A stretch of 64,000 nt of DNA. Origin: Cyclobacteriaceae bacterium (GTDB taxonomy: Bacteria; Bacteroidota; Bacteroidia; Cytophagales; Cyclobacteriaceae). Below are positions 24,509-36,832 of the stretch, in pieces. The stretch lies in assembly GCA_019638355.1 (NCBI GenBank), contig JAHBTY010000006.1:310001-374000 (forward strand), written 5' to 3'. The position numbers were made by a program, and so were the translations under genes. The notes below the pieces were generated by a model. The model was not told the DNA's origin. It made no database searches and worked only from the letters and a program-made list of their open reading frames with translations. How positions within the stretch are numbered: position 1 is the stretch's first letter; every line of letters starts with the position of its first letter.

Positions 24509-27500
24509 CTATTGCACCACTCGCTTCACAACCTCCACCACTTTCCCCTTCTTACGTGCATAGATGTTGTTATCGTACATGGCTTCGCAACTTACTGCCG
24601 GTAAGTAATACGAACCCGCATAGCTCGCGGTAAGCATCACCTTAAACGTTTTGGATTGCCGTGCGCCCAGATCAAAATACGTATAAACCCGATCATCGCG
24701 GATGTCTTGGTAGGTAGGTACATCACCGGTAATCTTTGCCGCATCATCGCCTGTTAAGCGTAAGTTGTTTATCTCCCAACCTGATGGAAAAATCTGGTTG
24801 AGTGCGAGGTTTTTATATAAGCCCCGCATACCCGGATTGAATACCGTAACTGTGGCTACAAACTCAGTCCCTTGCTCCAATGTGGCTGGATCTAATGGAG
24901 TGCCATCGGTTTTGGTGTAACTAACGCCTAGTGTCAAATTCTTCTCACTATCTTCCTCTGTGCCGCGTGCGGGTACTCCTTCTTGTATTACCCGTGCAAA
25001 CAAAACAGCTTTGCTGGCACTTACTACTTTCAGATCGGCCGCTTTATTTCCTGCTGGTAAAACAATAGACGCGACCGGTAAGTCGGTGCCCGTTGTTACC
25101 TCTTTGCCATTATACGTGTATGAAAATTTCAGATCACCTTTTTCACCACTCGCAAATGAACCAACCGATTTTAAACTCCAGGCTAATGTTTGCGTGTTCA
25201 TCCAATAATTGAAATCGCTTAAGGCAACCGAAAGTTCTTTCACAATTTCAAACGCACGGGTTCTGTCATTCAACAGGATTAATGTCTCCAGAATAATTGC
25301 CTTATCACGCAAATCTGAACCATAAGAATAGGCCAGTTCCTGATACGGTTTAACTTGTGTCGGTAATTTTTCAATCAACTTTTTAGCTGCTTCAGGCTGA
25401 CCTGCTTTTACATATGCTGCAGCCAACATCCACGCTGCCGTAGAGGGAAGATTACCTTGCTCGCGCAGGCGGTTCATCGCACCTAACTCTGCATCACCTG
25501 CAAGGGCCAATGTATACAACCGATAGGCTTGTATCAATTCGCTGCTACCATACTCTTGTGCTTTGCGCCAGCTTTGGGCTTTGTTCTTCTGATATTTTTT
25601 CCAACGCCTGATCATATCGTTGGGCACATAATAACCCTTCGCTTCAGCTTCAATTAAGAAATGTCCGGCATAAGTACTCCCCCAACTATCCGAATCGCCA
25701 CTGCCGGGCCAGTAAGCAAAGCCACCATCACTATGCACAAAAGTTTTTAATCGTTCTACACCCGCGGTAACATTGCGTTGAATGGTGGTTTTCTCTGCAT
25801 CAGTTAATGCTTTTACTTTATCGAGATACAATTGTGGAAAGACTGATGAAGTAGTTTGTTCTATACAACCATACGGATATTGCAAGAGGTAACGCATGCG
25901 CTGGCCAAGGTTAACGGGTGGCAAACTTGAAATTTCAAGTGTTGCCAGGTTTGTTCCGGCAACACCAAACGGAGTTACAGTTGTGTTCCAGGTTTTACCG
26001 GCATCCAACACCACATCGGCAACTTGTGTAACCGGTGGATTCGGATTGCGAACTTCAATTTCAATTTCATCGGTTGCAGAATAACTTCCCGATGTAGCGG
26101 TAACCGTTACTTTTGCAAATCCCGTTTCGCTCTTCACATTCAATGCAAAGTCGAGTGTAAGATCGCTTTCATTCATGGCTACCGTGCGCGAAGATTCATC
26201 TACTATACCAACCGGGCCACCAACTTTAATATCCACCTTCACATTTTTAATGTTATTCTCACTCTTAAATAATGTGATTGGAAGTTTAACTTGTTCTTCC
26301 GGACCGAGCACACGCGGCAACGTGGCCAGCACCATCAATGGCTTGCGCACCGGTGTTGCTTTTTCGGTTTTACCATAGGCACCTTCATACCCGGCCACCA
26401 ACATCGTTTTAACCGAGCCGATGTATTGTGGCATAATAAATTTATGCTCATTACTTCCACCCGAAAGGGTAATCGGCCCAAAGAATTTTACTACAGGTTT
26501 AAAGCGATTTGACTTTGCATCGTCTTCTTTTGCCGCTAACTCAGCATCGCCACCCAGTGCCAGCAACCGTTCTACTCGGCCACCCAGTGAACCCATTACC
26601 TGATCGTATAAATCCCATGTAACAACACCCAACGCTTCACGCGCATAAAATTTATTCCAGGCATCGGGAGTGGTGAAGCGCGTGAGATCCAATAAACCTT
26701 CATCGACAATAGCAAGCGTGTACGTCATCTTGCGTTTTGATTTTTCGCTTACTTTAATCACCACTTCTTTACCGGGCTCCAACACATCGGGCATGGCAAT
26801 AACTGGTTCAAGATGAGTGTTGGGGTCTTCTACCTGAATCGGAATTACTCCATACAATCGTATCGGTAAATCGTTGGTGGTTTGTGCGTGTGGTTGCAAT
26901 AAGGTAATGTTCACAAAAACATTGGGTGTCATTTCTTTGGTAACATCGAATGTAAATTGATTATCACCTTTCTGGGTTTCGAGCCAATACGTTTGCAATA
27001 CTTTACTTCCGTTTTCGATGCTGATAAGGGCACGCCCTTTTTCGCTACCTGGAATAACCAACATGGCTTTCTCACCTACATTGTAAACTTGCTTGTCGGA
27101 TGAAAATGAAAGCATGGTTGCACCTTCGCCTTCGTTGCGCGCACGACCAGCCCAACCCGGCCAATCGATGTACACCACTTTACCCGTGCTGTGTCCGCTT
27201 TGTGGGTCGTAGGCTTTCACAAAGAAGCGACCCCACTCCGGATACTTAACTTCAAAGTTCCACGAGCCTTTTCCATTTACCGTGCTTACTCGCCCTGTAG
27301 CAATGGGTTGCGAATAATTACCCGACATAAAGTTTACAGAACCTTCCGAGCCGTCCCACCACCAGCGCCAATTGATTTTATAAAGCGATAACTCCACTGT
27401 TCGGGATAGTGGTTTACCATCAGCATCTACTGTAACAATATCTACTCGTTGCGTGGTATCTGTGCGCAACATGCCGCGGGCTTTATCTCCTTTTGGTAGT

Positions 27501-30055
27501 TTAATTCCCGTTAGTGTTTTGTATGGATAGAATGGAATACTAAACCGATCGATGCTGAAGTTACCACTCTCTTCAAACACCTTACCCCTGAACACCGCAT
27601 TGAGTGTACCGGGAGCTTCGCCATTCACTTCCAGATTTGCATTAACCTGTGCATTTCCATTGGCATCGGTGTTTCCTTCAAAAATGGTTTGAGCTTCACT
27701 ATAAAAATCAATGGAGGGATCATCGAATACATACTCTTTATATTGATCGAACTTGGTTGTGCCTTTGGTGAGTAGCACATCAAATTGCGCACGCAGGTTT
27801 TTACCAGGTGCACCATGGAGCCAATTTACTTTCAGATTGCCCAATACATTATTGTTACCGGCTGTAAGTTTATCTACACCAAAGTCAAGATTGATCTTTA
27901 ACCGGTTTGGTTTAACAGTTTCAATTTTTAAATACTGTTGAAATTCGGTACTACCAACTTTTACGCGACCCAGCCAATTGCCGGTTGGTGCATCGGCTGC
28001 GGTTGCGGTGGCGAATTTATAAAAACCATTTTCGGATGACGAACGCACCAAACGGGTAGTAACCTGGCCTTGTGGATTCTGCAATTCAAATACTACCGGA
28101 TGCGAAGCCGGTAACAACTTGTTTTTATCTTCCAGAATAAAACTGAGGTAAAGCGAATCGCCCGGTCGCCATACACCCCGTTCGCCATATAAAAATCCTT
28201 TCAGTCCGTTCTGCACATACTCGCCACTCACATTAAAATTACTCAGCGAAAGCGATTCACCACCTTGTACTTTCAGGAAGCCACGCTGAACTCCGTTTTT
28301 AGCTACTAATGCAAATGGCTTTTTGCTGGAATTCAACGTAACTTTTCCATCGCGATCGGTTTTTCCAGTGGCAATTACCTGTAGTTGATAGTCGTACAAC
28401 TCAACTTCAACCCAGGAAAGGGGTAAGGTCGTTTTAACATCATTCACGATCACCAGTGTGTTATCATCGCCACCGCGTTTAGCCAGCAAGCCAAGGTCGG
28501 ATGCCAGTACATTGCGTTTAATGTTGCGGTTACCCGTGTAGTAGGAAGAATGGCAGGGATTATCGCGTTGCGTCCAATCATAATCTTCGTAATAGTAGTA
28601 ATCATCGTACGAATCCCAATAGCTCTCTTCGCCCGCATCATCACCATCCCATTTTTCAAAAGCTTGTTCACGCAATGTTGTTTCTTCACCGCCCTCGCAC
28701 ACGTAGGCTAAATATGTTTTCTTAAAACTAAGGCGTACCTGGTAAATGGCTCCGGGTTCGGCTTGCATGAAAGTGGTAAGGTCAAGTGTAAAGCGATTCC
28801 ACTTTCCTAAATCGGATACACCTGCATTTTCAAGTGAGATGGTTTTGCTTAATACAGGGCGCCCCACGCGCCTTAGTTCCTGATTACCGTCTAAACTATT
28901 TACCTGTAAAAATTGTAACACATTATCTTCAAAAATTCGAATCACCTTTACGTCAACCGATTTAAGGTTAACTGCTTCAAAAGGCATAACCAAGCCATCG
29001 GTAGAAGGCAGAATATTCCCCTTACCGACAAAGCGCACAGCAGGTAATGTTTGCTCAAAGGCTACATCGAACGTAGCTGCTTCTTTCATTTTATAATTGA
29101 GGATATTTTTTATTCCGGCTTCGATGGTAATGGAGCGAGAACCGGTTTGCCGTACCGGAGGAAATACTTTTACTTCATTATCTTTTACCTCAAAATCAAG
29201 ACTTGCTAATTCTGAAATACGAATAAGTCCTTCCAGGTTCTGGGTTTCGTTGAGCGGATCGGAGAATTGAACTACCACCTGCTGGCTGGTGCCTTGTTCA
29301 ACCCGTACATTCACTACTTTAAAGTCACCCAGGGCAGGAATTTCCACATCACGTTCTTCCTTATGTTCAACTTGCAATGGAGTACCCACAAACGCGAGCG
29401 TTACTTTGCTGGCCGCATCTTTACGAGCTACATCTTCTACAATAAACGCATGGGTTTTTCCTTCGCCTGTGTGCACCCAGTTTATTTTTAAAGAGGAGCC
29501 ATCCTGTGTAGCAGCAAGCATTTTTTCTACAGCCTCAGTTTCTGCGTAGTCGGCTGTGTAAACCGTTCCCTCAATTTTTTGTCGCTTCAAATCTGTTTTA
29601 ACATAGGGTTTTACGTTTTCCACTGCTACCTCAAAGTTTTGGGGTATTACCTGCAATGAGTATTCAAAGGTTTTAAGCTCAGCTGGCACTTCCATTAACC
29701 GGTGTAGGTTAAAGTTGATTTTATAGATTTGACCCGAAACCAACCGGGCCCCAGGTTTAAACTCCAGGGTACGCTTGTCCACCCAAATAGTGGTACCCTT
29801 TACAGAGGGGCTTAGATCAAATAATTTAAGAGTTGTTTCAGTGCCTACGGCAGTTTCTTCGGCCACATCGTGCGAAAGCACTACCCGTATGGGCGAGCCC
29901 GACCCGATAACACCGGCAGTATAAGAAGTAATGTACTGACCAAAGGCAGGATTAATGGTTGAGTTAACGGGTTGTTCCGTTTTACGGAAAGCGAAGTAGT
30001 AAATACCTGCGGCTGCTGCGCCAACTACCAACAGACCAATAAGAGCTTTTTTCAT
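24509..30055 (-). CDS. Bacterial alpha-2-macroglobulin with thioester motif
   Basis: The 1848-residue protein has an N-terminal membrane anchor (KKALIGLLVVGAAAAGIYYFA) without a lipobox, unlike the enterobacterial lipoprotein YfhM. A chain of macroglobulin-like beta domains follows, with an acidic Tyr-rich insertion (about 470-510). LYGERGVWRPGDSLYLSF and the bait-like region precede the alpha-2-macroglobulin core (VTWDLYDQVMGSLGGR). The thioester motif is YGCIEQTTS with Cys1397 and Gln1400, inside an alpha/alpha-toroid TED domain. Such proteins trap attacking proteases in the periplasm. Linkage with pbpC fits the known idea of guarding repair of damaged cell wall. It is first in the operon. 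Confidence 0.95.
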   Translation of the reverse strand: MKKALIGLLVVGAAAAGIYYFAFRKTEQPVNSTINPAFGQYITSYTAGVIGSGSPIRVVLSHDVAEETAVGTETTLKLFDLSPSVKGTTIWVDKRTLEFKPGARLVSGQIYKINFNLHRLMEVPAELKTFEYSLQVIPQNFEVAVENVKPYVKTDLKRQKIEGTVYTADYAETEAVEKMLAATQDGSSLKINWVHTGEGKTHAFIVEDVARKDAASKVTLAFVGTPLQVEHKEERDVEIPALGDFKVVNVRVEQGTSQQVVVQFSDPLNETQNLEGLIRISELASLDFEVKDNEVKVFPPVRQTGSRSITIEAGIKNILNYKMKEAATFDVAFEQTLPAVRFVGKGNILPSTDGLVMPFEAVNLKSVDVKVIRIFEDNVLQFLQVNSLDGNQELRRVGRPVLSKTISLENAGVSDLGKWNRFTLDLTTFMQAEPGAIYQVRLSFKKTYLAYVCEGGEETTLREQAFEKWDGDDAGEESYWDSYDDYYYYEDYDWTQRDNPCHSSYYTGNRNIKRNVLASDLGLLAKRGGDDNTLVIVNDVKTTLPLSWVEVELYDYQLQVIATGKTDRDGKVTLNSSKKPFALVAKNGVQRGFLKVQGGESLSLSNFNVSGEYVQNGLKGFLYGERGVWRPGDSLYLSFILEDKNKLLPASHPVVFELQNPQGQVTTRLVRSSSENGFYKFATATAADAPTGNWLGRVKVGSTEFQQYLKIETVKPNRLKINLDFGVDKLTAGNNNVLGNLKVNWLHGAPGKNLRAQFDVLLTKGTTKFDQYKEYVFDDPSIDFYSEAQTIFEGNTDANGNAQVNANLEVNGEAPGTLNAVFRGKVFEESGNFSIDRFSIPFYPYKTLTGIKLPKGDKARGMLRTDTTQRVDIVTVDADGKPLSRTVELSLYKINWRWWWDGSEGSVNFMSGNYSQPIATGRVSTVNGKGSWNFEVKYPEWGRFFVKAYDPQSGHSTGKVVYIDWPGWAGRARNEGEGATMLSFSSDKQVYNVGEKAMLVIPGSEKGRALISIENGSKVLQTYWLETQKGDNQFTFDVTKEMTPNVFVNITLLQPHAQTTNDLPIRLYGVIPIQVEDPNTHLEPVIAMPDVLEPGKEVVIKVSEKSKRKMTYTLAIVDEGLLDLTRFTTPDAWNKFYAREALGVVTWDLYDQVMGSLGGRVERLLALGGDAELAAKEDDAKSNRFKPVVKFFGPITLSGGSNEHKFIMPQYIGSVKTMLVAGYEGAYGKTEKATPVRKPLMVLATLPRVLGPEEQVKLPITLFKSENNIKNVKVDIKVGGPVGIVDESSRTVAMNESDLTLDFALNVKSETGFAKVTVTATSGSYSATDEIEIEVRNPNPPVTQVADVVLDAGKTWNTTVTPFGVAGTNLATLEISSLPPVNLGQRMRYLLQYPYGCIEQTTSSVFPQLYLDKVKALTDAEKTTIQRNVTAGVERLKTFVHSDGGFAYWPGSGDSDSWGSTYAGHFLIEAEAKGYYVPNDMIRRWKKYQKNKAQSWRKAQEYGSSELIQAYRLYTLALAGDAELGAMNRLREQGNLPSTAAWMLAAAYVKAGQPEAAKKLIEKLPTQVKPYQELAYSYGSDLRDKAIILETLILLNDRTRAFEIVKELSVALSDFNYWMNTQTLAWSLKSVGSFASGEKGDLKFSYTYNGKEVTTGTDLPVASIVLPAGNKAADLKVVSASKAVLFARVIQEGVPARGTEEDSEKNLTLGVSYTKTDGTPLDPATLEQGTEFVATVTVFNPGMRGLYKNLALNQIFPSGWEINNLRLTGDDAAKITGDVPTYQDIRDDRVYTYFDLGARQSKTFKVMLTASYAGSYYLPAVSCEAMYDNNIYARKKGKVVEVVKRVVQ

Positions 30056-30190: not shown

Positions 30191-30907
30191 TTACTTCTTA
30201 CACGCTACTCCCTCAACATAATTCTTGATTACACCCATTGATTTAGCAACCGTACTGCCTTCGAATCCGGTAATGTCATTGTAGTTGACTTGCTTTTGGT
30301 ATTGCTCTAAAAATTCGCCCGATAAGGGCAGGTAACTCCAATGCCAGCGCTCTTCTTCGTAGCCGGTGCGACCCGAATCTTTAGCGGTATAAGGCTGGCA
30401 GAAACCATATTCAGCAGCATGGGCTTTAAGCCAGGTATAAATTTTTAAGCCTTCGCCTGAATCAAAGAAACTATTGTTGAGCACATTCAAATCCATATCC
30501 GTTCCCCAATGGTGGCGCGAGGTGGACGGCATGGAGCTGTATAATAAGATGAGTCGTGCACGCTCTTTCAGGTCGTTAACGGTAGTCAGGTCTTTTCCTT
30601 CTACCTGCACTTTTCCATTCCACTTGTTTTCCCAGATACGTTTTTGTGAATCAAAATTACGCGTGGCTGATATTATTGTTAGTTCAACGCCTTCCTTGCG
30701 GGCAGCATCGCTCATCTTTATAAAAGCTTCGTAGGTTTCTTTTCTAAGATAAGCCCCACGGCCACTTCCGCGTGTATGTTCATCGGCCAGCTTTACAAAC
30801 TGAGGATGTGTTGCCGGATCAAACTTTCCCAGTAGATAATTTTTATCAACCGGTTGGGCTTGAAGAACAATCGAACTGGCAATAATAAGAAGCGTAATCA
30901 ATCTCAT
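30191..30907 (-). CDS. M15B-family D,D-carboxypeptidase (VanY/LdcB-like)
   Basis: The 238-residue protein has a signal peptide (1-18, ending VLQAQ). The zinc site is visible in SRHHWGTDMDLNVLN (His and Asp ligands) and the downstream ERWHWSY (His ligand), the SxHxxGxAxD and ExWH motifs of the VanY/DacB group. Such enzymes trim D-Ala or L,D-linked residues from peptidoglycan stem peptides in the periplasm. It lies 135 nt upstream of the alpha-2-macroglobulin operon on the same strand, consistent with cell-wall remodelling. The gap contains only a short odd palindrome (AGGTCAGACCT). Confidence 0.88.
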   Translation of the reverse strand: MRLITLLIIASSIVLQAQPVDKNYLLGKFDPATHPQFVKLADEHTRGSGRGAYLRKETYEAFIKMSDAARKEGVELTIISATRNFDSQKRIWENKWNGKVQVEGKDLTTVNDLKERARLILLYSSMPSTSRHHWGTDMDLNVLNNSFFDSGEGLKIYTWLKAHAAEYGFCQPYTAKDSGRTGYEEERWHWSYLPLSGEFLEQYQKQVNYNDITGFEGSTVAKSMGVIKNYVEGVACKK

Positions 30908-30989: not shown

Positions 30990-32093
30990 TCACACCCGCT
31001 CCGTCACCTGATTCATCACTTTAGTTTGTACCTGTATCGACTCATGGTGAATCAACTTCAGTAAATCATTCGTAAACTCTTCGTTCAATCCCATTGCCTT
31101 ACATAAAGCAATCCGGGTTTGTACAATTTCTTCCCAGCGATTTACCTGCAGGATGGTTACATTATTTTCTTTCTTGTACTGGCCTATCTTCTCTGATATC
31201 TTCATGCGTTGCGATAACCGTTGCATGATCTCATCATCTAACTGGTCAATCTGCTCACGCAGAATACTGAGTGTGTCTTTAAAAGTTTTGTTCTCAACAG
31301 ACGCAGTTCGAACTACTAACTCACTAATTATCTTGCCCAACACAGCCGGAGTAACTTGTTGCTTGGCATCGCTCCACGCGGCATCGGGGTTAATATGACT
31401 TTCAATCATCAAACCTGCCATATCCAAATCAAGTGCCTTCTGCGAAATGAAGGCAATCAAATCGCGATTACCAGCAATGTGACTTGGATCGCAAAACATA
31501 TCTAACTCCGGTACACGGGTTTTCAATTCAATAGCCAGATCCCACATGGGTGCATTGCGGAAAGGTCCCTTTTCAAATGAAGAGAACCCGCGGTGAATGG
31601 CAGCCAACTTGGTAATACCTGCTTTGTTCAAACGTTCGAACGCACCTAACCACAACTCCACATCCGGGTTAATCGGATTTTTTACCAACACCGGTATATC
31701 AACACCTTTTAATGCATCGGCAACTTCCTGAACCGAAAATGGATTTACCGTGGTGCGCGCACCGACCCAAAGAAAATTTACTCCAGCTTTTAAGGCAGCT
31801 TCTACGTGGGCCGCATTGGCTACTTCAGTGGTTACCGGCAAACCTGTTTCTTTACCCGCTTGCACCAGCCATGTTAAACCTACATCACCGGCACCTTCGT
31901 ATTGGCCAGGCCTTGTGCGCGGCTTCCAGATACCGGCACGCAATGCATGCACTTTGCCGGTTGCTGCAACTTGTTTAGCTGTTGCGATAGTTTGTTCTTC
32001 TGTCTCTGCACTGCACGGACCGCTAATGATAACGGGTCTGCTGGTCTTCATCCAGGATGAGATGGGTTCGAGTTGTAATCCTTTCTTTGTCAT
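30990..32093 (-). CDS. Bifunctional DAHP synthase / chorismate mutase
   Basis: The 367-residue protein has a type I-beta DAHP synthase domain at about 1-265. Markers are ISGPCSAE with metal-binding Cys27, AGIWKPRTRPGQYEG, VLVKNPINPD, CDPSHIAG and MIESHINPDAAWSDAKQQ. It is joined to a C-terminal AroQ-type chorismate mutase (about 275-360: LREQIDQLDDEIMQRLSQRMKISEKIG). The enzyme makes DAHP from PEP and erythrose-4-phosphate and also converts chorismate to prephenate. The fused mutase can give prephenate-sensitive feedback. It is the last gene of the Phe/Tyr operon behind the leader at 35126-35203. Confidence 0.95.
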   Translation of the reverse strand: MTKKGLQLEPISSWMKTSRPVIISGPCSAETEEQTIATAKQVAATGKVHALRAGIWKPRTRPGQYEGAGDVGLTWLVQAGKETGLPVTTEVANAAHVEAALKAGVNFLWVGARTTVNPFSVQEVADALKGVDIPVLVKNPINPDVELWLGAFERLNKAGITKLAAIHRGFSSFEKGPFRNAPMWDLAIELKTRVPELDMFCDPSHIAGNRDLIAFISQKALDLDMAGLMIESHINPDAAWSDAKQQVTPAVLGKIISELVVRTASVENKTFKDTLSILREQIDQLDDEIMQRLSQRMKISEKIGQYKKENNVTILQVNRWEEIVQTRIALCKAMGLNEEFTNDLLKLIHHESIQVQTKVMNQVTERV

Positions 32094-32153: not shown

Positions 32154-33017
32154 TTAAGTTTTGGGTTTATCGCTCTGATCCAACACCCTGCGAATCTCAT
32201 TCGCCTTGGACATAATGCGATGCAACTCTTTTGTGTCGCGCTTCATTAAGTGGTAATGAAATTTTTGCAGGTGCATAATGTATTCCAGCAATGCCTGGCT
32301 CAGATACTCTACATTTTGTTCAAAGATGGGGGCCCACATGTCGGGTGAACTTTTGGCTAACCGTACCGTAGAGGCAAAACCACTACCGGCCAGATCAAAG
32401 ATATTCTTTTCGTCTTTCTCAATATCCAACACAGTTTGACCCAGCAAAAAGGAACTCACGTGCGAGAGATGCGATACATACGCTACATGCCGATCGTGCT
32501 CATCGGCTTCCATAAAAATGGTTTTCATTTCCAATGCATCAAAAACTTTCATGGCTGTATTCAGTGCCTCTACTGAAGATTTACCGGCTTCGCAAATAAT
32601 GTTGGTCTTACCTTTAAACAGGCCATCAAATGCCGCGGTTGGACCTGAGTTTTCAGTACCGGCAATAGGATGAGCCGCCACAAACTGATTTCGTTTTGGG
32701 TGATTGGCCACCGATTTACAAATAGATGTTTTAGTTGATCCACCATCAATAACCACAGCTCCCTTCTTCACAATATCCAACACCGCTGGTAAAAATGCAT
32801 TCAGGGCATTTACCGGAATAGCCAACACAATTAAATCAGCTGTTGAAAGTGCTTTGTCTTCGGTTAAGATTTTATCTACCAAACCAATCTCCACTGCTTT
32901 TAATCCGTTGGCAGCATTTGCATCTACTCCTATCAGTTCGGTGGCAATTCCTGCTCTGCGCAAACCCAATGCAATGGAACCCCCAATCAAACCCAATCCA
33001 ACAATTGTAGTTTTCAT
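32154..33017 (-). CDS. tyrA: Prephenate dehydrogenase
   Basis: The 287-residue protein has an N-terminal NAD(P)-binding fold (MKTTIVGLGLIGGSIALGLRRAG) and the prephenate dehydrogenase helical domain. The substrate-site sequence is HPIAGTENSGPTAAFDGLFKGK, with catalytic-His-region HDRHVAYVSHLSHVSSF. It oxidises prephenate to 4-hydroxyphenylpyruvate for tyrosine synthesis. No ACT domain follows, so feedback control by Tyr through ACT is absent. The ATG is 5 nt after the aminotransferase stop; the DAHP synthase gene begins 60 nt downstream. Confidence 0.95.
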   Translation of the reverse strand: MKTTIVGLGLIGGSIALGLRRAGIATELIGVDANAANGLKAVEIGLVDKILTEDKALSTADLIVLAIPVNALNAFLPAVLDIVKKGAVVIDGGSTKTSICKSVANHPKRNQFVAAHPIAGTENSGPTAAFDGLFKGKTNIICEAGKSSVEALNTAMKVFDALEMKTIFMEADEHDRHVAYVSHLSHVSSFLLGQTVLDIEKDEKNIFDLAGSGFASTVRLAKSSPDMWAPIFEQNVEYLSQALLEYIMHLQKFHYHLMKRDTKELHRIMSKANEIRRVLDQSDKPKT

Positions 33018-33022
33018 TTTAT

Positions 33023-34219
33023 TCAGACTTGAGAGGTTAGATTGGAAACACTTGATTTTTCCTTATCGAATTTTTGAATCCTGGCAAGGGCTTCATTTAG
33101 TTTTTCTTCTGTAGCACAAAGCGAGATGCGTATAAAACGTGATCCACATTTGCCAAAAATAAAACCAGGCGTTATAAACACATGCGTGGCATAAAGTACT
33201 TCATCAATCCACTTCTCCACATCGGCCACATGTGCAGGAGCCTTGGCCCAAACAAACAAGCCCGATTGCTTTTCGGAATAAGTACAACCTAAAACATCTA
33301 AAATCTTTCGCGCAGCCGTTCTCCTTTTTTTATAAACTGCATTTAACTCGGTAAACCATTCCGCTTCACATTTCAAGGCTTCAGCGGCAGCTTGCTGTAA
33401 ACCTAAGAACATGCCACTATCCATATTGCTCTTTACGCGTAGCACGGCATCAATTAAATCTTTGTTACCCGCTACCCATCCAATGCGCCAGCCAGCCATG
33501 TTGTGCGATTTACTCAGCGAATTCAATTCCAGCGCTACATCGGCAGCTCCTTCAATGGCTAGAATACTTTGCGGATTATCGTTTAAGATTAACGAATACG
33601 GATTATCATTTACAATCAGAAAATTGTTTTCGCGGGCAAGATCAACCAACGCTTTTAATTCTTGTTGCGATGCGGTTCTGCCAGTAGGCATGTGTGGAAA
33701 GTTAACCCACATGATTTTTACCTTCGATAAATCAGATTGCCTTAGCGCCTCTGCATCAATTCCCCAGTTGAGCGATTCCTGAAGTTGATAGGTTCGTACT
33801 TTTGCTCCAACCAATTTAGCTACCGATGAGTACGTGGGGTAACCCGGATCGGGAATCAAAACCTCTTCACCTTCATTTACAAAAGCCATAGCAATATGCA
33901 TGATGCCTTCCTTCGAACCCATGAGCGGAAGGATTTCATTCTCAGCATTCAGGTTAACGCCATATGTACGTTTGTAAAATGCTTTTATACCCTCCCGCAA
34001 TGCGGGAATGCCTTTATAATTCTGATAGCCATGACTGTTTGCTTTTTGTGCGGTTACATTCAATACTTCAATAACCGATGCAGCAGGGGCCAAATCGGGG
34101 CTACCAATACCCAGGTTAATTACCGGATGTGCGGGCGTATCCAACTCGCGCACTTCTGCTAACTTCCTGCTGAAGTAATACTCTTCTACATTGGCAATCC
34201 GGTTTGCAGTTTTAATCAT
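33023..34219 (-). CDS. Class I/II pyridoxal-phosphate aminotransferase, probably aromatic
   Basis: The 398-residue protein is counted from the ATG at 34219, which is one base after the pheA stop (TAA-C-ATG). The TTG 15 nt upstream lies inside pheA and is less likely. The fold-type I motifs are NLGIGSPDLAPA, MGSKEGIMHIA, NDNPYSLI and the PLP lysine in SLSKSHNMAGWRIGW. Its position between pheA and tyrA suggests that it transaminates phenylpyruvate and 4-hydroxyphenylpyruvate to Phe and Tyr. Specificity is inferred from context only. Confidence 0.9.
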   Translation of the reverse strand: MIKTANRIANVEEYYFSRKLAEVRELDTPAHPVINLGIGSPDLAPAASVIEVLNVTAQKANSHGYQNYKGIPALREGIKAFYKRTYGVNLNAENEILPLMGSKEGIMHIAMAFVNEGEEVLIPDPGYPTYSSVAKLVGAKVRTYQLQESLNWGIDAEALRQSDLSKVKIMWVNFPHMPTGRTASQQELKALVDLARENNFLIVNDNPYSLILNDNPQSILAIEGAADVALELNSLSKSHNMAGWRIGWVAGNKDLIDAVLRVKSNMDSGMFLGLQQAAAEALKCEAEWFTELNAVYKKRRTAARKILDVLGCTYSEKQSGLFVWAKAPAHVADVEKWIDEVLYATHVFITPGFIFGKCGSRFIRISLCATEEKLNEALARIQKFDKEKSSVSNLTSQV

Positions 34220-34220
34220 G

Positions 34221-35063
34221 TTACTTGTATTCAATTTTTGCTTTTTTGTATTCCCCTAAAATATTCAGGTTCTTCACTTGCCGCAGCACCTCACCAATTG
34301 CCGCATCGTAGCTTCTACGTTTCTTCCACTCCACATCTATGTGAATGGAATATTCACTGGGTTTACCAATAATAGGTATCGATTGAATTTTTGATAGGTT
34401 GATGCTATTGTTCTTAAACGTCATTAGCGCTTCGGCCAGGCTACCCACTTCATTGGCAACTTCAAAATACAACGAGGCCTTGTTGCTATCGGGTGTAGTT
34501 TTGATTTTGCGGGTAAGGATAAGAAAGCGGGTAAAGTTTTTCTTATGCGTTTCGATGCGCTTCTCTAAAATATTCAAACCAAATTTTTTAGCCGCATATT
34601 CATTGGCAATGGCTGCCGTGGTTTTTAGTTTTTGCTCTTTTACTTTGCGTGCCGAAAGTGCCGTGTCTTCACTCTCCAAAATTTGCACACCATTTAACTT
34701 GTAAAGAAAATCCGTACACTGCCGAATGGCCATGGGGTGCGATTCGATACTGGTAAGATCATTCAGCTTAACACCGGGCAATGCCAGCAGGTGCATGTGT
34801 ATCGGCAGGTAAACTTCACCGATAATCGAGAAGTGATATTCCTGCAGTAAAAAGTAGTTGGGCAAAATGCTTCCCGCGATCGAGTTTTCTATGGCCATTA
34901 CCGCATAGTCGGATTCGCCTTTCTTCAACGATTCGCATAAGGCATGAAAACTCAGGCATTCTACGGTTTGAATCGGTTCGTGAAAGTACGTTAAGGCCGC
35001 TACCTCGTGGAAGCTGGTGGCGATGCCTTGAATGGCGATCTTCAGTTTTTTCTTTTTGCTCAT
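34221..35063 (-). CDS. pheA: Prephenate dehydratase
   Basis: The 280-residue protein has a prephenate dehydratase domain (about 8-190) with AIENSIAGSI and the catalytic Thr in KKNFTRFLIL. A C-terminal ACT domain (about 200-275) follows. The phenylalanine-binding ESRP motif of many homologues is replaced by KIQSIPIIGKPSEYSIHIDVE. It makes phenylpyruvate from prephenate. No chorismate mutase domain is present; that activity is in the fused DAHP synthase three genes on. The ATG at 35063 lies 10 nt after a hairpin-plus-U-run attenuator, and the gene is preceded by a Phe/Tyr-rich leader ORF. Confidence 0.95.
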   Translation of the reverse strand: MSKKKKLKIAIQGIATSFHEVAALTYFHEPIQTVECLSFHALCESLKKGESDYAVMAIENSIAGSILPNYFLLQEYHFSIIGEVYLPIHMHLLALPGVKLNDLTSIESHPMAIRQCTDFLYKLNGVQILESEDTALSARKVKEQKLKTTAAIANEYAAKKFGLNILEKRIETHKKNFTRFLILTRKIKTTPDSNKASLYFEVANEVGSLAEALMTFKNNSINLSKIQSIPIIGKPSEYSIHIDVEWKKRRSYDAAIGEVLRQVKNLNILGEYKKAKIEYK

Positions 35064-35068
35064 ACATC

Positions 35069-35101
35069 AAAAAGAAAGTCCCTCTTTCGGAGGGACTTTC
35101 T
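35069..35101 (-). terminator. Attenuator terminator of the Phe/Tyr operon
   Basis: On the minus strand AGAAAGTCCCTC (35101-35090), loop CGAAA, and GAGGGACTTTCT (35084-35073) form a perfect 12-bp stem. TTTT (35072-35069) follows directly. It lies between the leader ORF stop (35126) and the pheA ATG (35063), so it would stop transcription before pheA. It also covers the region where a ribosome would load for pheA. Confidence 0.9.
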
Positions 35102-35153
35102 GAGTTTCTTTCGTTTTATTATTTCTTAACAAACCGATTCTCTTTCAAGTCCC
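35092..35153 (-). promoter_or_regulatory. Putative antiterminator pairing in the phe leader
   Basis: GGGACTT at 35153-35147, inside leader codons 17-19, is perfectly complementary (7 bp) to AAGTCCC at 35098-35092 in the terminator's 5' arm, and it duplicates the terminator's 3' arm sequence. A ribosome stalled at the Phe/Tyr codons (35188-35159) would leave this segment free to pair and prevent the terminator. An upstream TCCC can close GGGA into a small protector stem (TCCC-TGC-GGGA). The pairing was found by eye. Confidence 0.65.
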
Positions 35154-35203
35154 GCAGGGAATTGATAAAAAAAGTAAAAGAAGTAAAATCGGTTGGTGAT
35201 CAT
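35126..35203 (-). CDS. Phe/Tyr-rich leader peptide of the aromatic amino acid operon
   Basis: This 25-codon ORF runs from ATG 35203-35201 to TAA 35128-35126. The peptide begins MITNRFYFFYFFYQF: residues 6-15 contain six Phe and three Tyr, so nine of ten codons call for tRNA-Phe or tRNA-Tyr. The rest is PAGLERESVC. Directly downstream come a 24-nt purine-rich spacer, the 12-bp terminator hairpin with its U-run, and pheA. This is the layout of leader peptides such as PheL and TrpL, in which ribosome stalling controls transcription. I infer control by both Phe and Tyr, matching an operon that makes both. The upstream 160 nt hold a weak CAGTTTTG -7-like box only. Confidence 0.88.
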   Translation of the reverse strand: MITNRFYFFYFFYQFPAGLERESVC

Positions 35204-35285
35204 TTGTTTCAATTCTGGTTCTAAGAAAGATGAAAAAATCTGTTTGTGCAAAACTGGCTCAAAAAATCTTTAAAATTTTAATTTT

Positions 35286-35364: not shown

Positions 35365-35802
35365 ATGAAAACCGTTCTATCCCTTGTTGTGATAACACTA
35401 CTTTTAACTGGTTGCGAAAAGCACCAATCCGCAACATCCGAAACCGATAAAAGCGAAAACCCCAACCAGGTACTATACGATCAGGTGATGGATGTTCACG
35501 ATGAAGTAATGCCGAAGATGGACGAGATAATGAAACTGAAGCGCAGCTTACAGGAGCAAATTGCCAATACACCCGATATGGTAATTGAACGCAAACGCCA
35601 ATTGGAAAAAATGATCAGCAACCTGGACTCAGCCAGCACCGCCATGATGGACTGGATGCACAAGTTTAATCCGCTGCCTGACTCTGTTGACCAAGAGTTG
35701 GCCCGCGAATACCTGGAAGGCGAAATGGAAAAAATCAGAAATGTAAAAACGTTGATGCTGGAGAGTATCGACAAAGCCAAACAGGAAAGCAGCAAAAAAT
35801 AA
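35365..35802 (+). CDS. Small helical lipoprotein of unknown function
   Basis: The 145-residue protein has a lipobox LLLTGC with Cys16, so it is probably lipid-anchored in the envelope. The mature part is highly charged and predicted alpha-helical, with coiled-coil-like stretches (VMDVHDEVMPKMDEIMKLKRSLQEQI; ERKRQLEKMISNLDSAS; MEKIRNVKTLMLESIDKAKQ). Similar Bacteroidota proteins are often labelled viral A-type inclusion protein from coiled-coil similarity, which says nothing about function. It is divergent from the phe leader and 13 nt upstream of a SET-domain gene, with which it may be co-transcribed. Confidence 0.8.
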   Translation: MKTVLSLVVITLLLTGCEKHQSATSETDKSENPNQVLYDQVMDVHDEVMPKMDEIMKLKRSLQEQIANTPDMVIERKRQLEKMISNLDSASTAMMDWMHKFNPLPDSVDQELAREYLEGEMEKIRNVKTLMLESIDKAKQESSKK

Positions 35803-35815
35803 CGGCCAGTACTAT

Positions 35816-36232
35816 ATGGATAAAAATCGCTTGCTGGCCGAACTCAGGCAATCAACGTATGTAATGCTAAAACCTTCGGCCGTTTCAGGTGTGGGCGTGT
35901 TTGCTGTTGTGGACATACCCAAAGGCTGCCGCGATATGTTTAGTGCACCTGATCCGGAAGAAAAATGGATTACGCTATCAAAGCAAGAGGTTGAATCGCT
36001 GCCAGCGCATGCACAATTTCTGATTGGTAACTATTGCCTGTTCGATGAAGAGCTGAACTACTTTGTTCCAGAGAAGGGTTTTAAGAAAATGGATGTGTCA
36101 CTTTTCATTAATCATGGCGATCAGCCCAACATCAAATCGATTAACGATGGCGATTACTTTGAAACCTTACGGGATATAGCAGCCGGTGAAGAATTATTTT
36201 TGGATTATGGTGAGATTGTTCCCGATGAATAA
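35816..36232 (+). CDS. SET domain-containing protein
   Basis: The 138-residue protein is a compact SET domain: SAVSGVGVFAVVDIPKG at the start, SLFINHGDQPNIKSIND (the NHS-like pseudoknot strand) and DIAAGEELFLDYGEIV at the end. SET domains are S-adenosylmethionine-dependent lysine methyltransferases, first known in eukaryotes but also found in bacteria. The substrate is unknown. No pre- or post-SET zinc cysteines are present. It follows the lipoprotein gene and faces a second SET-domain gene on the other strand, 51 nt away. Confidence 0.85.
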   Translation: MDKNRLLAELRQSTYVMLKPSAVSGVGVFAVVDIPKGCRDMFSAPDPEEKWITLSKQEVESLPAHAQFLIGNYCLFDEELNYFVPEKGFKKMDVSLFINHGDQPNIKSINDGDYFETLRDIAAGEELFLDYGEIVPDE

Positions 36233-36283: not shown

Positions 36284-36787
36284 TTACTTCTTACTACTCC
36301 GCTTAGTGGCAATGTGATGCGGTAACTCTACCTTCTTACTAATTTTCTTTCCTTCCTTCTCTTTGTTACGTTGCTCTAACCTAATGTTGTACCGGATAGC
36401 CTGCCAGTATTCGCCACCATATCCTACTAAAACTTCAGAGCCCGCGGGAATGTCGCGCATTGCTTCGATGTAACACCGCTTCTTTTCAGTTACATACTCC
36501 GAATTATTTTTTACACCCTTTACACGCACCAGGCCTTTTGCATCATTGGCATAATGTGCAATTCCTTTTTTGGTTTTCCAGGCATCAATACAATATTGAT
36601 TGTTGAAGAAGAATACATACCCATTCCGGTCATCGGCCATCTTCTCTACTTCTTTCCAGGTAACAATCTCGCCTTTGTATTCTACAATACGGGTACCTTT
36701 TGGTATAAACACTTTTGTAAAAAGGCCTTTTCCTGCTCCCGGCAAGGTGGACTTCTTAATTATCATTTTCTTTTCAAGTAATGCCAT
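36284..36787 (-). CDS. SET domain-containing protein with basic C-terminal tail
   Basis: The protein is 167 residues from the ATG at 36787 (MALLEKK); an in-frame ATG at 36814 would add nine residues. The SET motifs are STLPGAGKGLFTKVFIPKGTRI, VEYKGEIVTWKEV, IAHYANDAKGLVRVKGVKNNSEYV and RDIPAGSEVLVGYGGEYW. The last 35 residues are Lys/Arg-rich (EQRNKEKEGKKISKKVELPH), which could bind nucleic acid or be a substrate for methylation. The asparagine-histidine pair of canonical SET domains reads HYAND here, so activity needs checking. Confidence 0.85.
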   Translation of the reverse strand: MALLEKKMIIKKSTLPGAGKGLFTKVFIPKGTRIVEYKGEIVTWKEVEKMADDRNGYVFFFNNQYCIDAWKTKKGIAHYANDAKGLVRVKGVKNNSEYVTEKKRCYIEAMRDIPAGSEVLVGYGGEYWQAIRYNIRLEQRNKEKEGKKISKKVELPHHIATKRSSKK

Positions 36788-36832
36788 AGGGCCGCGAAGA
36801 TAATTGAAAATCATTCAGCCGAAAGGCATAAA

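Follow-up and report, generated by a model that had tools for sequence, protein, structure and literature searches.

The window, by which we mean the whole stretch of 64,000 nucleotides analysed here, carries on its minus strand an operon for aromatic amino acids whose first gene, pheA, is preceded by a short reading frame crowded with phenylalanine and tyrosine codons and then by a hairpin with a run of U. The arrangement raises the question of whether translation of the short frame decides if transcription proceeds into the operon. A sequence-only reading had proposed that it does, through a leader peptide and an attenuator that may integrate two tRNA pools. We regard ribosome-mediated transcription attenuation, with charged tRNA-Phe and tRNA-Tyr as the sensed molecules, as very probably right, since the codon run and the terminator are conserved and the antiterminator pairing shows compensatory change.

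Anatomy of the leader before pheA

The features of the locus, all on the minus strand, are the following.

30990..32093 (-): DAHP synthase-chorismate mutase fusion (PF00793 and PF01817)
32154..33017 (-): tyrA, prephenate dehydrogenase (NF006307, 348.3 bits, cut-off 295)
33023..34234 (-): class I/II aminotransferase (PF00155)
34221..35063 (-): pheA, prephenate dehydratase (PF00800, 187.3 bits)
35069..35072 (-): U run of the terminator
35073..35084 (-): strand 4, the 3′ arm of the terminator; 8 of the 12 pairs have changes on both sides
35090..35101 (-): strand 3, the 5′ arm of the terminator; AAGTCCC at 35098-35092 pairs with strand 2
35126..35203 (-): leader ORF MITNRFYFFYFFYQFPAGLERESVC, 25 codons and TAA; 66 of the 79 related loci that could be tested have a counterpart
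35132..35139 (-): strand 0′, AATCGGTT, from the fold and the cognate-energy test
35147..35153 (-): strand 2, GGGACTT, the 5′ side of the antiterminator, within the leader ORF
35157..35160 (-): possible strand 1, TCCC, which may form a small hairpin with GGGA of strand 2; the pyrimidine block recurs
35165..35188 (-): regulatory codons FYFFYFFY, residues 6-13, followed by Gln14 and then Phe15
35187..35194 (-): strand 0, AACCGATT, partner of strand 0′, from the fold and the cognate-energy test
35221..35228 (-): TTTCTTAG, a variant of the Bacteroidota -7 box TAnnTTTG
35249..35251 (-): TTG, putative -33 element of a promoter; 20 nt separate it from the -7-like box

The leader ORF starts with the ATG at 35203-35201 and stops with the TAA at 35128-35126, and its residues 6-15 read F Y F F Y F F Y Q F, nine of the ten being Phe or Tyr. 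The hairpin, AGAAAGTCCCTC-CGAAA-GAGGGACTTTCT at 35101-35073, has 12 pairs and a loop of 5, the UUUU behind it reaches 35069, and the pheA ATG lies at 35063. Coordinates and translation agree with the sequence-only reading, which had described a 25-codon frame with nine Phe/Tyr codons, a 12-bp hairpin with a U run ahead of the pheA ATG, and a segment at 35153-35147 that is complementary to AAGTCCC and duplicates the terminator's 3′ arm. It had also ascribed the synthesis of both Phe and Tyr to the operon, in which we identified a prephenate dehydratase, an aminotransferase, a prephenate dehydrogenase and a DAHP synthase-chorismate mutase.

Three elements had been missed. One is the possible small strand 1 listed above. 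Another is an outer helix, 0:0′, in which codons ahead of the aromatic run pair with bases beyond strand 2; a nested fold cannot hold 0:0′ and 2:3 at once. The fold of the 145-nt leader RNA gave a z of -4.18. The third is a promoter-like pair that sits 18-48 nt upstream of the leader ATG. The available text of PMC9723704 gives TAnnTTTG as the Bacteroidota -7 consensus; the box of the window has 4 of its 6 defined letters and, taken alone, is not above chance. Exact TAnnTTTG was present in 14 of 67 leaders (the window and the 66 relatives described below) versus 3.4% of shuffles, and the pattern TTG-(20/21 nt)-TWnnTTWR, a relaxed one composed after inspection of the upstream sequences, was found upstream of 34 of the 67, the window among them, versus 1.7% of shuffles. 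A search for sigma-70-type promoters between 30900 and 35600 returned seven, all on the plus strand and none on the minus strand. A promoter would thus be a candidate shortly before the leader, with transcription putatively starting there.

The nearest upstream ORF (35365-35802, without a Pfam match) is divergent, and the hairpin is therefore not its terminator. Side by side in this neighbourhood are two SET-domain proteins, at 35816-36232 on the plus strand and 36284-36814 on the minus strand (PF00856, 42.3 and 50.5 bits), a domain better known from eukaryotes. Downstream of the aromatic operon, both on the minus strand, lie a VanY-type carboxypeptidase (30191-30907) and a bacterial alpha-2-macroglobulin (24509-30055).

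Conservation and compensatory change in related leaders

A PheA scan with one genome per species yielded 148 matching loci, of which 80 were kept; one of these, L095, starts too near a contig end, which left 79 testable pheA loci. A short aromatic ORF preceded pheA in 66 of them, namely the closest (L031-L097 minus L095), which are mostly titled Cytophagales, Cyclobacteriaceae or Flammeovirgaceae and include two Solitalea; Chryseolinea serpens (L049) and Ohtaekwangia koreensis (L057) are cultured members of this group. No comparable leader was present in the 13 more distant loci (L098-L110, titled Flavobacteriales, Prolixibacteraceae, Draconibacterium and similar), where L108 offers a weak candidate with 5/10. 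In all 66 relatives, as in the window, the aromatic ORF was followed by a hairpin terminator. Run and terminator, on whose conservation in close relatives the sequence-only reading had staked its case, are kept in the 66 close loci and in the window. Three of these loci carry a one-base gap, which may reflect decay or a homopolymer sequencing error: inside the aromatic run in L036 (2357-2492), and near the end of the run in L047 and L051 (2354-2496 in each), where the shifted frame stops in strand 2.

In the alignment of the close set, the terminator pairing 3:4 held in 98.0% of cells, with both sides changed in 8 of 12 pairs. The antiterminator 2:3 was paired in 89.5% of cells and the outer helix 0:0′, on fixed alignment columns, in 73.7%; strand 2 is misplaced in L094 and L096 and a few other rows are shifted, which affects the column figures for 2:3, 1:2 and 0:0′. 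Two-sided changes occurred in only 2 of 8 pairs of 2:3 within the close set, and two of five measures were not above shuffles. Pairing energies were then compared between cognate and noncognate strands. For 2:3, the values were -14.1 versus -12.85 kcal/mol in 28 dereplicated close leaders (1/2000 permutations) and -14.59 versus -10.57 kcal/mol in 36 dereplicated leaders of the broader set described below (0/5000 permutations); this fixed-window test avoids selection of the best duplex, and, the sequences still being related, its counts are not a strict probability. The compensatory change expected between strand 2 and the terminator is thus weak within the close set and clear in the broader 36. 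Co-changing pairs of strands 2 and 3 include GGGACT/AGTCCC, GGGGCT/AGCCCC, GGGGGATT/AATCCCCC and GAATCGG/CCGATTC, and strands 2, 3 and 4 change together in L043, L047, L051 and L056 (GGGGCTT with AGCCCC) as well as in L089 and L097 (GGGGGATT with AATCCCCC).

Comparison likewise showed compensatory pairing in the outer helix, for which cognate strands reached -12.07 versus -8.89 kcal/mol for noncognate ones in the 28 dereplicated leaders (0/2000 permutations); individual cognate values ranged from -21.2 down to only -0.3 kcal/mol in L083, and another subgroup forms the helix from AACAACACA and TGTGTTGTT. The small CCC/GGG hairpin 1:2 recurs by eye, and we rejected it as a strictly conserved element: cognate strands paired no better than others (699/2000 permutations), and neither the alignment nor the 28 dereplicated leaders gave it covariation support.

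A covariance model, R1, built from the 67 leaders had matches in 70 of the 148 genomes from the same family (E<=0.01), in 31 of 291 from the order (E<=0.001) and in 68 of 395 from the phylum (E<=0.01). An aromatic leader was seen in all 30 same-family loci examined (L111-L140, L137 included) and in 17 of 21 new loci of the order (L141-L161; none in L151, L154, L155 and L160). The 23 new loci of the phylum (L166-L188) gave 19 aromatic leaders before pheA or DAHP synthase, two of them, L179 and L181, in genomes outside the class; the other four (L170, L178, L184 and L186) are plain terminators, and the assignment of a DAHP synthase in L179 comes from visual inspection, without a family search. 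A PheA search at class level matched 42 of 149 genomes and added 26 loci, a few of them in genomes also matched by R1, with a leader in 15 (L209 included) and none seen in 11, two of which (L199 and L204) had the wrong ORF taken as pheA. The run of L137 (1498-1566), MINKLRYYYYYCNLSPRPDLMR, consists of Tyr only and stands before an aminotransferase gene, which suggests that the sensed amino acid may shift between lineages.

Altogether, the broader set held 56 distinct ORFs with at least 7/10 aromatic residues, two of which, on the plus strand of L150 and in L170, were judged spurious. A terminator accompanied 50 of the 56, and in 42 of these 50 the 2:3 duplex beat 95% of shuffles, whereas in 8 it did not. 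By pattern, the next gene was pheA in 37 cases, DAHP synthase-chorismate mutase in 11 and an aminotransferase in 2, the genes that the aromatic leader precedes in other genomes; 6 were unmatched, three being pheA-like, one DAHP synthase-like and two lying at the spurious ORFs. Dereplication reduced the set to 36 leaders, one of which, L141, has a peptide already present in the first set.

These data bear on the possibility that leader translation acts mainly on pheA translation or on Rho-dependent termination rather than by switching an intrinsic terminator. Four class-level leaders (L201, L209, L210 and L212) have no terminator by the rule used, and initiation in Bacteroidota differs from the Shine-Dalgarno type, as the available text of PMC9723704 describes, so that other couplings are conceivable. 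Against this, the hairpin and U run are in place in the window and its 66 close relatives, and the 5′ arm of the terminator co-varies with strand 4 as well as with strand 2. We give such a mechanism only a slim chance.

The codon run and the modelled position of the ribosome

In the 64-kb window, the leader is the sole ORF of 8-60 codons with at least 8/10 Phe/Tyr/Trp. First-order Markov sequence, 640 kb in length, contained no such ORF. The 66 related loci, with 374,577 bases in total, gave 103 ORF calls that reached 8/10 (nested starts counted), every one of them the leader itself. The observation of the leader is correct and far above chance. Among single-base differences between runs compared in pairs, 1109 of 1136 stay aromatic against 21% expected, a count restricted to pairs with equal run limits, without L036, in which the pairs are non-independent. 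This pattern points to coding-type selection on the run, and the leader is putatively translated. Phe and Tyr are mixed in all 67 runs, as had been noticed for the window, and Trp is also present in 23.

An ordinary intrinsic or bidirectional terminator preceded by a chance reading of a T-rich stretch would account for two features, since the hairpin is terminator-like on both strands and T-rich DNA favours TTT and TAT codons. It is at odds, however, with the divergent orientation of the next ORF, which leaves no same-strand gene upstream to terminate, with the retention of both parts in the window and 66 close relatives, with run changes that keep aromatic codons in frame, with the co-variation of strands 2 and 3 and with the empty Markov sequence, and we consider it extremely improbable.

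We then modelled the attenuator by folding the transcript to the end of strand 3 while a ribosome masked the first A-site base together with 16 nt upstream and 11 nt downstream of it, a footprint assumed on general grounds. Across the 67 leaders, the mean probability of 2:3 pairing, P(2:3), was 0.88-0.95 from ten codons before the end of the run to the last aromatic codon and fell to 0.54, 0.04 and 0.00 at one, two and three to five codons past it. The second set (n=36) gave 0.85, 0.51, 0.12 and 0.02 at 0, +1, +2 and +3 codons, and 0.67 without a ribosome. In the window, P(2:3) was 0.11 without a ribosome. With one, it rose from 0.34-0.41 (codons 2-4) through 0.74-0.82 (codons 5-7) to 0.98-0.99 (codons 8-13), then fell to 0.85 (codon 14) and 0.0 (codons 15-24), and it was 0.74 at codon 25 and 0.58 at the stop. 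In the model, therefore, a ribosome on the aromatic codons frees strand 2 and one two codons further covers it. The drop from 0.85 at codon 14 to 0.0 at codon 15 makes Phe15 probably not a regulatory codon; the aromatic content that had been noted for residues 6-15 stands, and the regulatory part of the run would end before the modelled switch at codons 14-15.

The geometry of the leaders agrees with this picture. Counted from the first base of the last aromatic codon, the GGG of strand 2 lies at a distance of 12-17 nt in 64 of the 67 close leaders, the exceptions being the window (8, with Phe15 counted), L071 (6) and L078 (-4). In the broader set, strand 2 starts 10-16 nt after that base in 34 of 36 leaders against 7.0 expected from uniform placement, strand 2 being chosen here as the best duplex in a zone, a choice that by itself favours pairing. 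That what is conserved is codons and a ribosome-length spacing to strand 2, which falls within the ORF or at its end, makes it scarcely credible that a tRNA- or metabolite-binding leader (a T-box or an aromatic riboswitch) controls the terminator beside an incidental ORF: such leaders use terminator/antiterminator switches too, but no T-box or riboswitch family reached its gathering score in the window, where four tRNAs were the only matches. A match to IRE_II in L054 was taken as spurious.

The leader-peptide attenuator that we favour would work as follows. Transcription would start shortly before the leader ATG, and a ribosome would trail RNA polymerase through the leader. When Phe-tRNA or Tyr-tRNA is short, the ribosome would halt on one of the eight aromatic codons and break 0:0′, leaving strand 2 free to pair with strand 3 before strand 4 exists; with this antiterminator formed, polymerase would read into pheA and the operon. 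When both tRNAs are charged, the ribosome would advance and cover strand 2, 3:4 would pair and transcription would end at the U run. Without a ribosome, or after its release, 0:0′ and the small 1:2 hairpin may hold strand 2 and so favour the terminator.

Three features of the model depart from a perfect switch. Ribosomes placed before the run also free strand 2. The mean P(2:3) without a ribosome is 0.74 over the 67 leaders (0.11 in the window), and an untranslated leader is therefore not predicted to terminate in most relatives, termination without a ribosome being predicted for the window. Finally, strand 2 becomes accessible again once the ribosome has reached a distant stop, where P(2:3) averages 0.44; the window has its 0.58 there because 25 nt separate the start of its strand 2 from the stop.

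Possible coupling, breadth and known systems

Three further leaders were seen in the same genome, with gene names taken from the families searched and from reading of the ORFs: a His run, MKNTQNIHGHHHHVTNMGGNALF, with a terminator before hisG (L162, 1207-1336, plus strand), an Ile/Leu/Val run, MNQINRTLAVISVLVLNVIILRKPGL, with a terminator before an ilvE-ilvD-ilvB-like cluster (L163, about 3705-3575, minus strand) and Trp-Trp-Trp, MKFVHTAWWWHKSKIDW, with a terminator before a trpE-like gene (L165, about 2109-1995, minus strand). The scan showed no clear leader at a second ilvD-type locus, L164. In the ribosome model, with strands chosen by eye, P(2:3) of the His, Ile/Leu/Val and Trp leaders dropped once the A site had passed the regulatory codons, the trp case being weak (mostly 0.5-0.6).

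Leader attenuation requires a ribosome closely behind RNA polymerase. Four leaders in one genome, together with aromatic ones in many related families, therefore argue for transcription-translation coupling in a phylum whose initiation is unlike Shine-Dalgarno. We lean towards the view, without holding it firmly, that aromatic leader attenuators extend across Bacteroidota, pooling Phe and Tyr (and Trp in some lineages) in one run before the first aromatic gene with a fixed spacing of 10-16 nt, outside Rfam except at the edge of Phe_leader; if so, the his, ilv and trp leaders of the same genome would make tight ribosome-polymerase coupling without Shine-Dalgarno a basic trait of the phylum. The sequences also suggest that, at a branch point, signals from two amino acids or from three may be integrated by one leader, and they yield a model of aromatic amino acid control in Bacteroidota that is precise and can be tested.

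Surveys by Vitreschak, Lyubetsky and colleagues (FEMS 2004; Mol Biol 2010) reportedly predicted some leader attenuators in Bacteroidetes/Chlorobi. No worked-out Phe/Tyr leader in Bacteroidota was apparent among the matches listed from the open-licence PMC literature. In the texts as available, PMC1183508 gives a general account of leader attenuation, the authors of PMC2965389 (2010) knew of demonstrated leader-peptide systems in Proteobacteria and Actinobacteria only, PMC7366714 mentions small Bacteroides ORFs that resemble leader peptides, and PMC4833913 concerns reinitiation. The word 'leader' is absent from the main text of PMC8305728, on his genes in the phylum. Closest to our case, PMC9723704 (2021) reports, in its available text, 'strong clues' for leader-peptide attenuation before amino acid operons of Flavobacterium psychrophilum and a conserved structured element, without Rfam hits, upstream of pheA. 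That element shares gene and phylum with ours, but neither a peptide nor a codon run nor a switch is described for it there. The statement in the sequence-only reading that no worked-out Phe/Tyr case in Bacteroidota was known to it holds, as far as this text goes, for the anatomy; it does not hold for clues to attenuation or for an element before pheA, both of which PMC9723704 contains.

The Rfam model RF01859 (Phe_leader) can be aligned to the window over its whole length, but the 38.4 bits obtained fall short of the gathering score, which is 55; among 20 other sources only L038 reaches that score (55.2). By analogy, the leader of the window would function like the enterobacterial Phe attenuator, and by the curated threshold it falls outside RF01859. 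The enterobacterial pheA/pheL attenuator has a short Phe-rich ORF, a terminator before pheA and a stall-dependent antiterminator. A short aromatic ORF, a terminator before pheA and, by prediction, an antiterminator that depends on stalling are common to both; here, in contrast, Phe and Tyr are mixed in every one of the 67 runs, with Trp in 23, and the operon also makes Tyr and carries out the first shikimate step. The trp, his and ilv attenuators of E. coli combine regulatory codons with 2:3 and 3:4 pairings that exclude each other and a strand 2 placed just past the stalled ribosome. Regulatory codons, exclusive pairings and, in the model, this placement of strand 2 are shared with the leaders described here, whereas these belong to another phylum, with initiation not of the Shine-Dalgarno type, and enclose the codon run in the outer helix 0:0′. 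The mechanism is thus classical; what is new is the anatomy, the outer helix, the proposed mixed Phe/Tyr(/Trp) sensing and the breadth, and the value of the case lies in that breadth, in the mixed codon run and in what it implies for coupling in the phylum rather than in a new principle.
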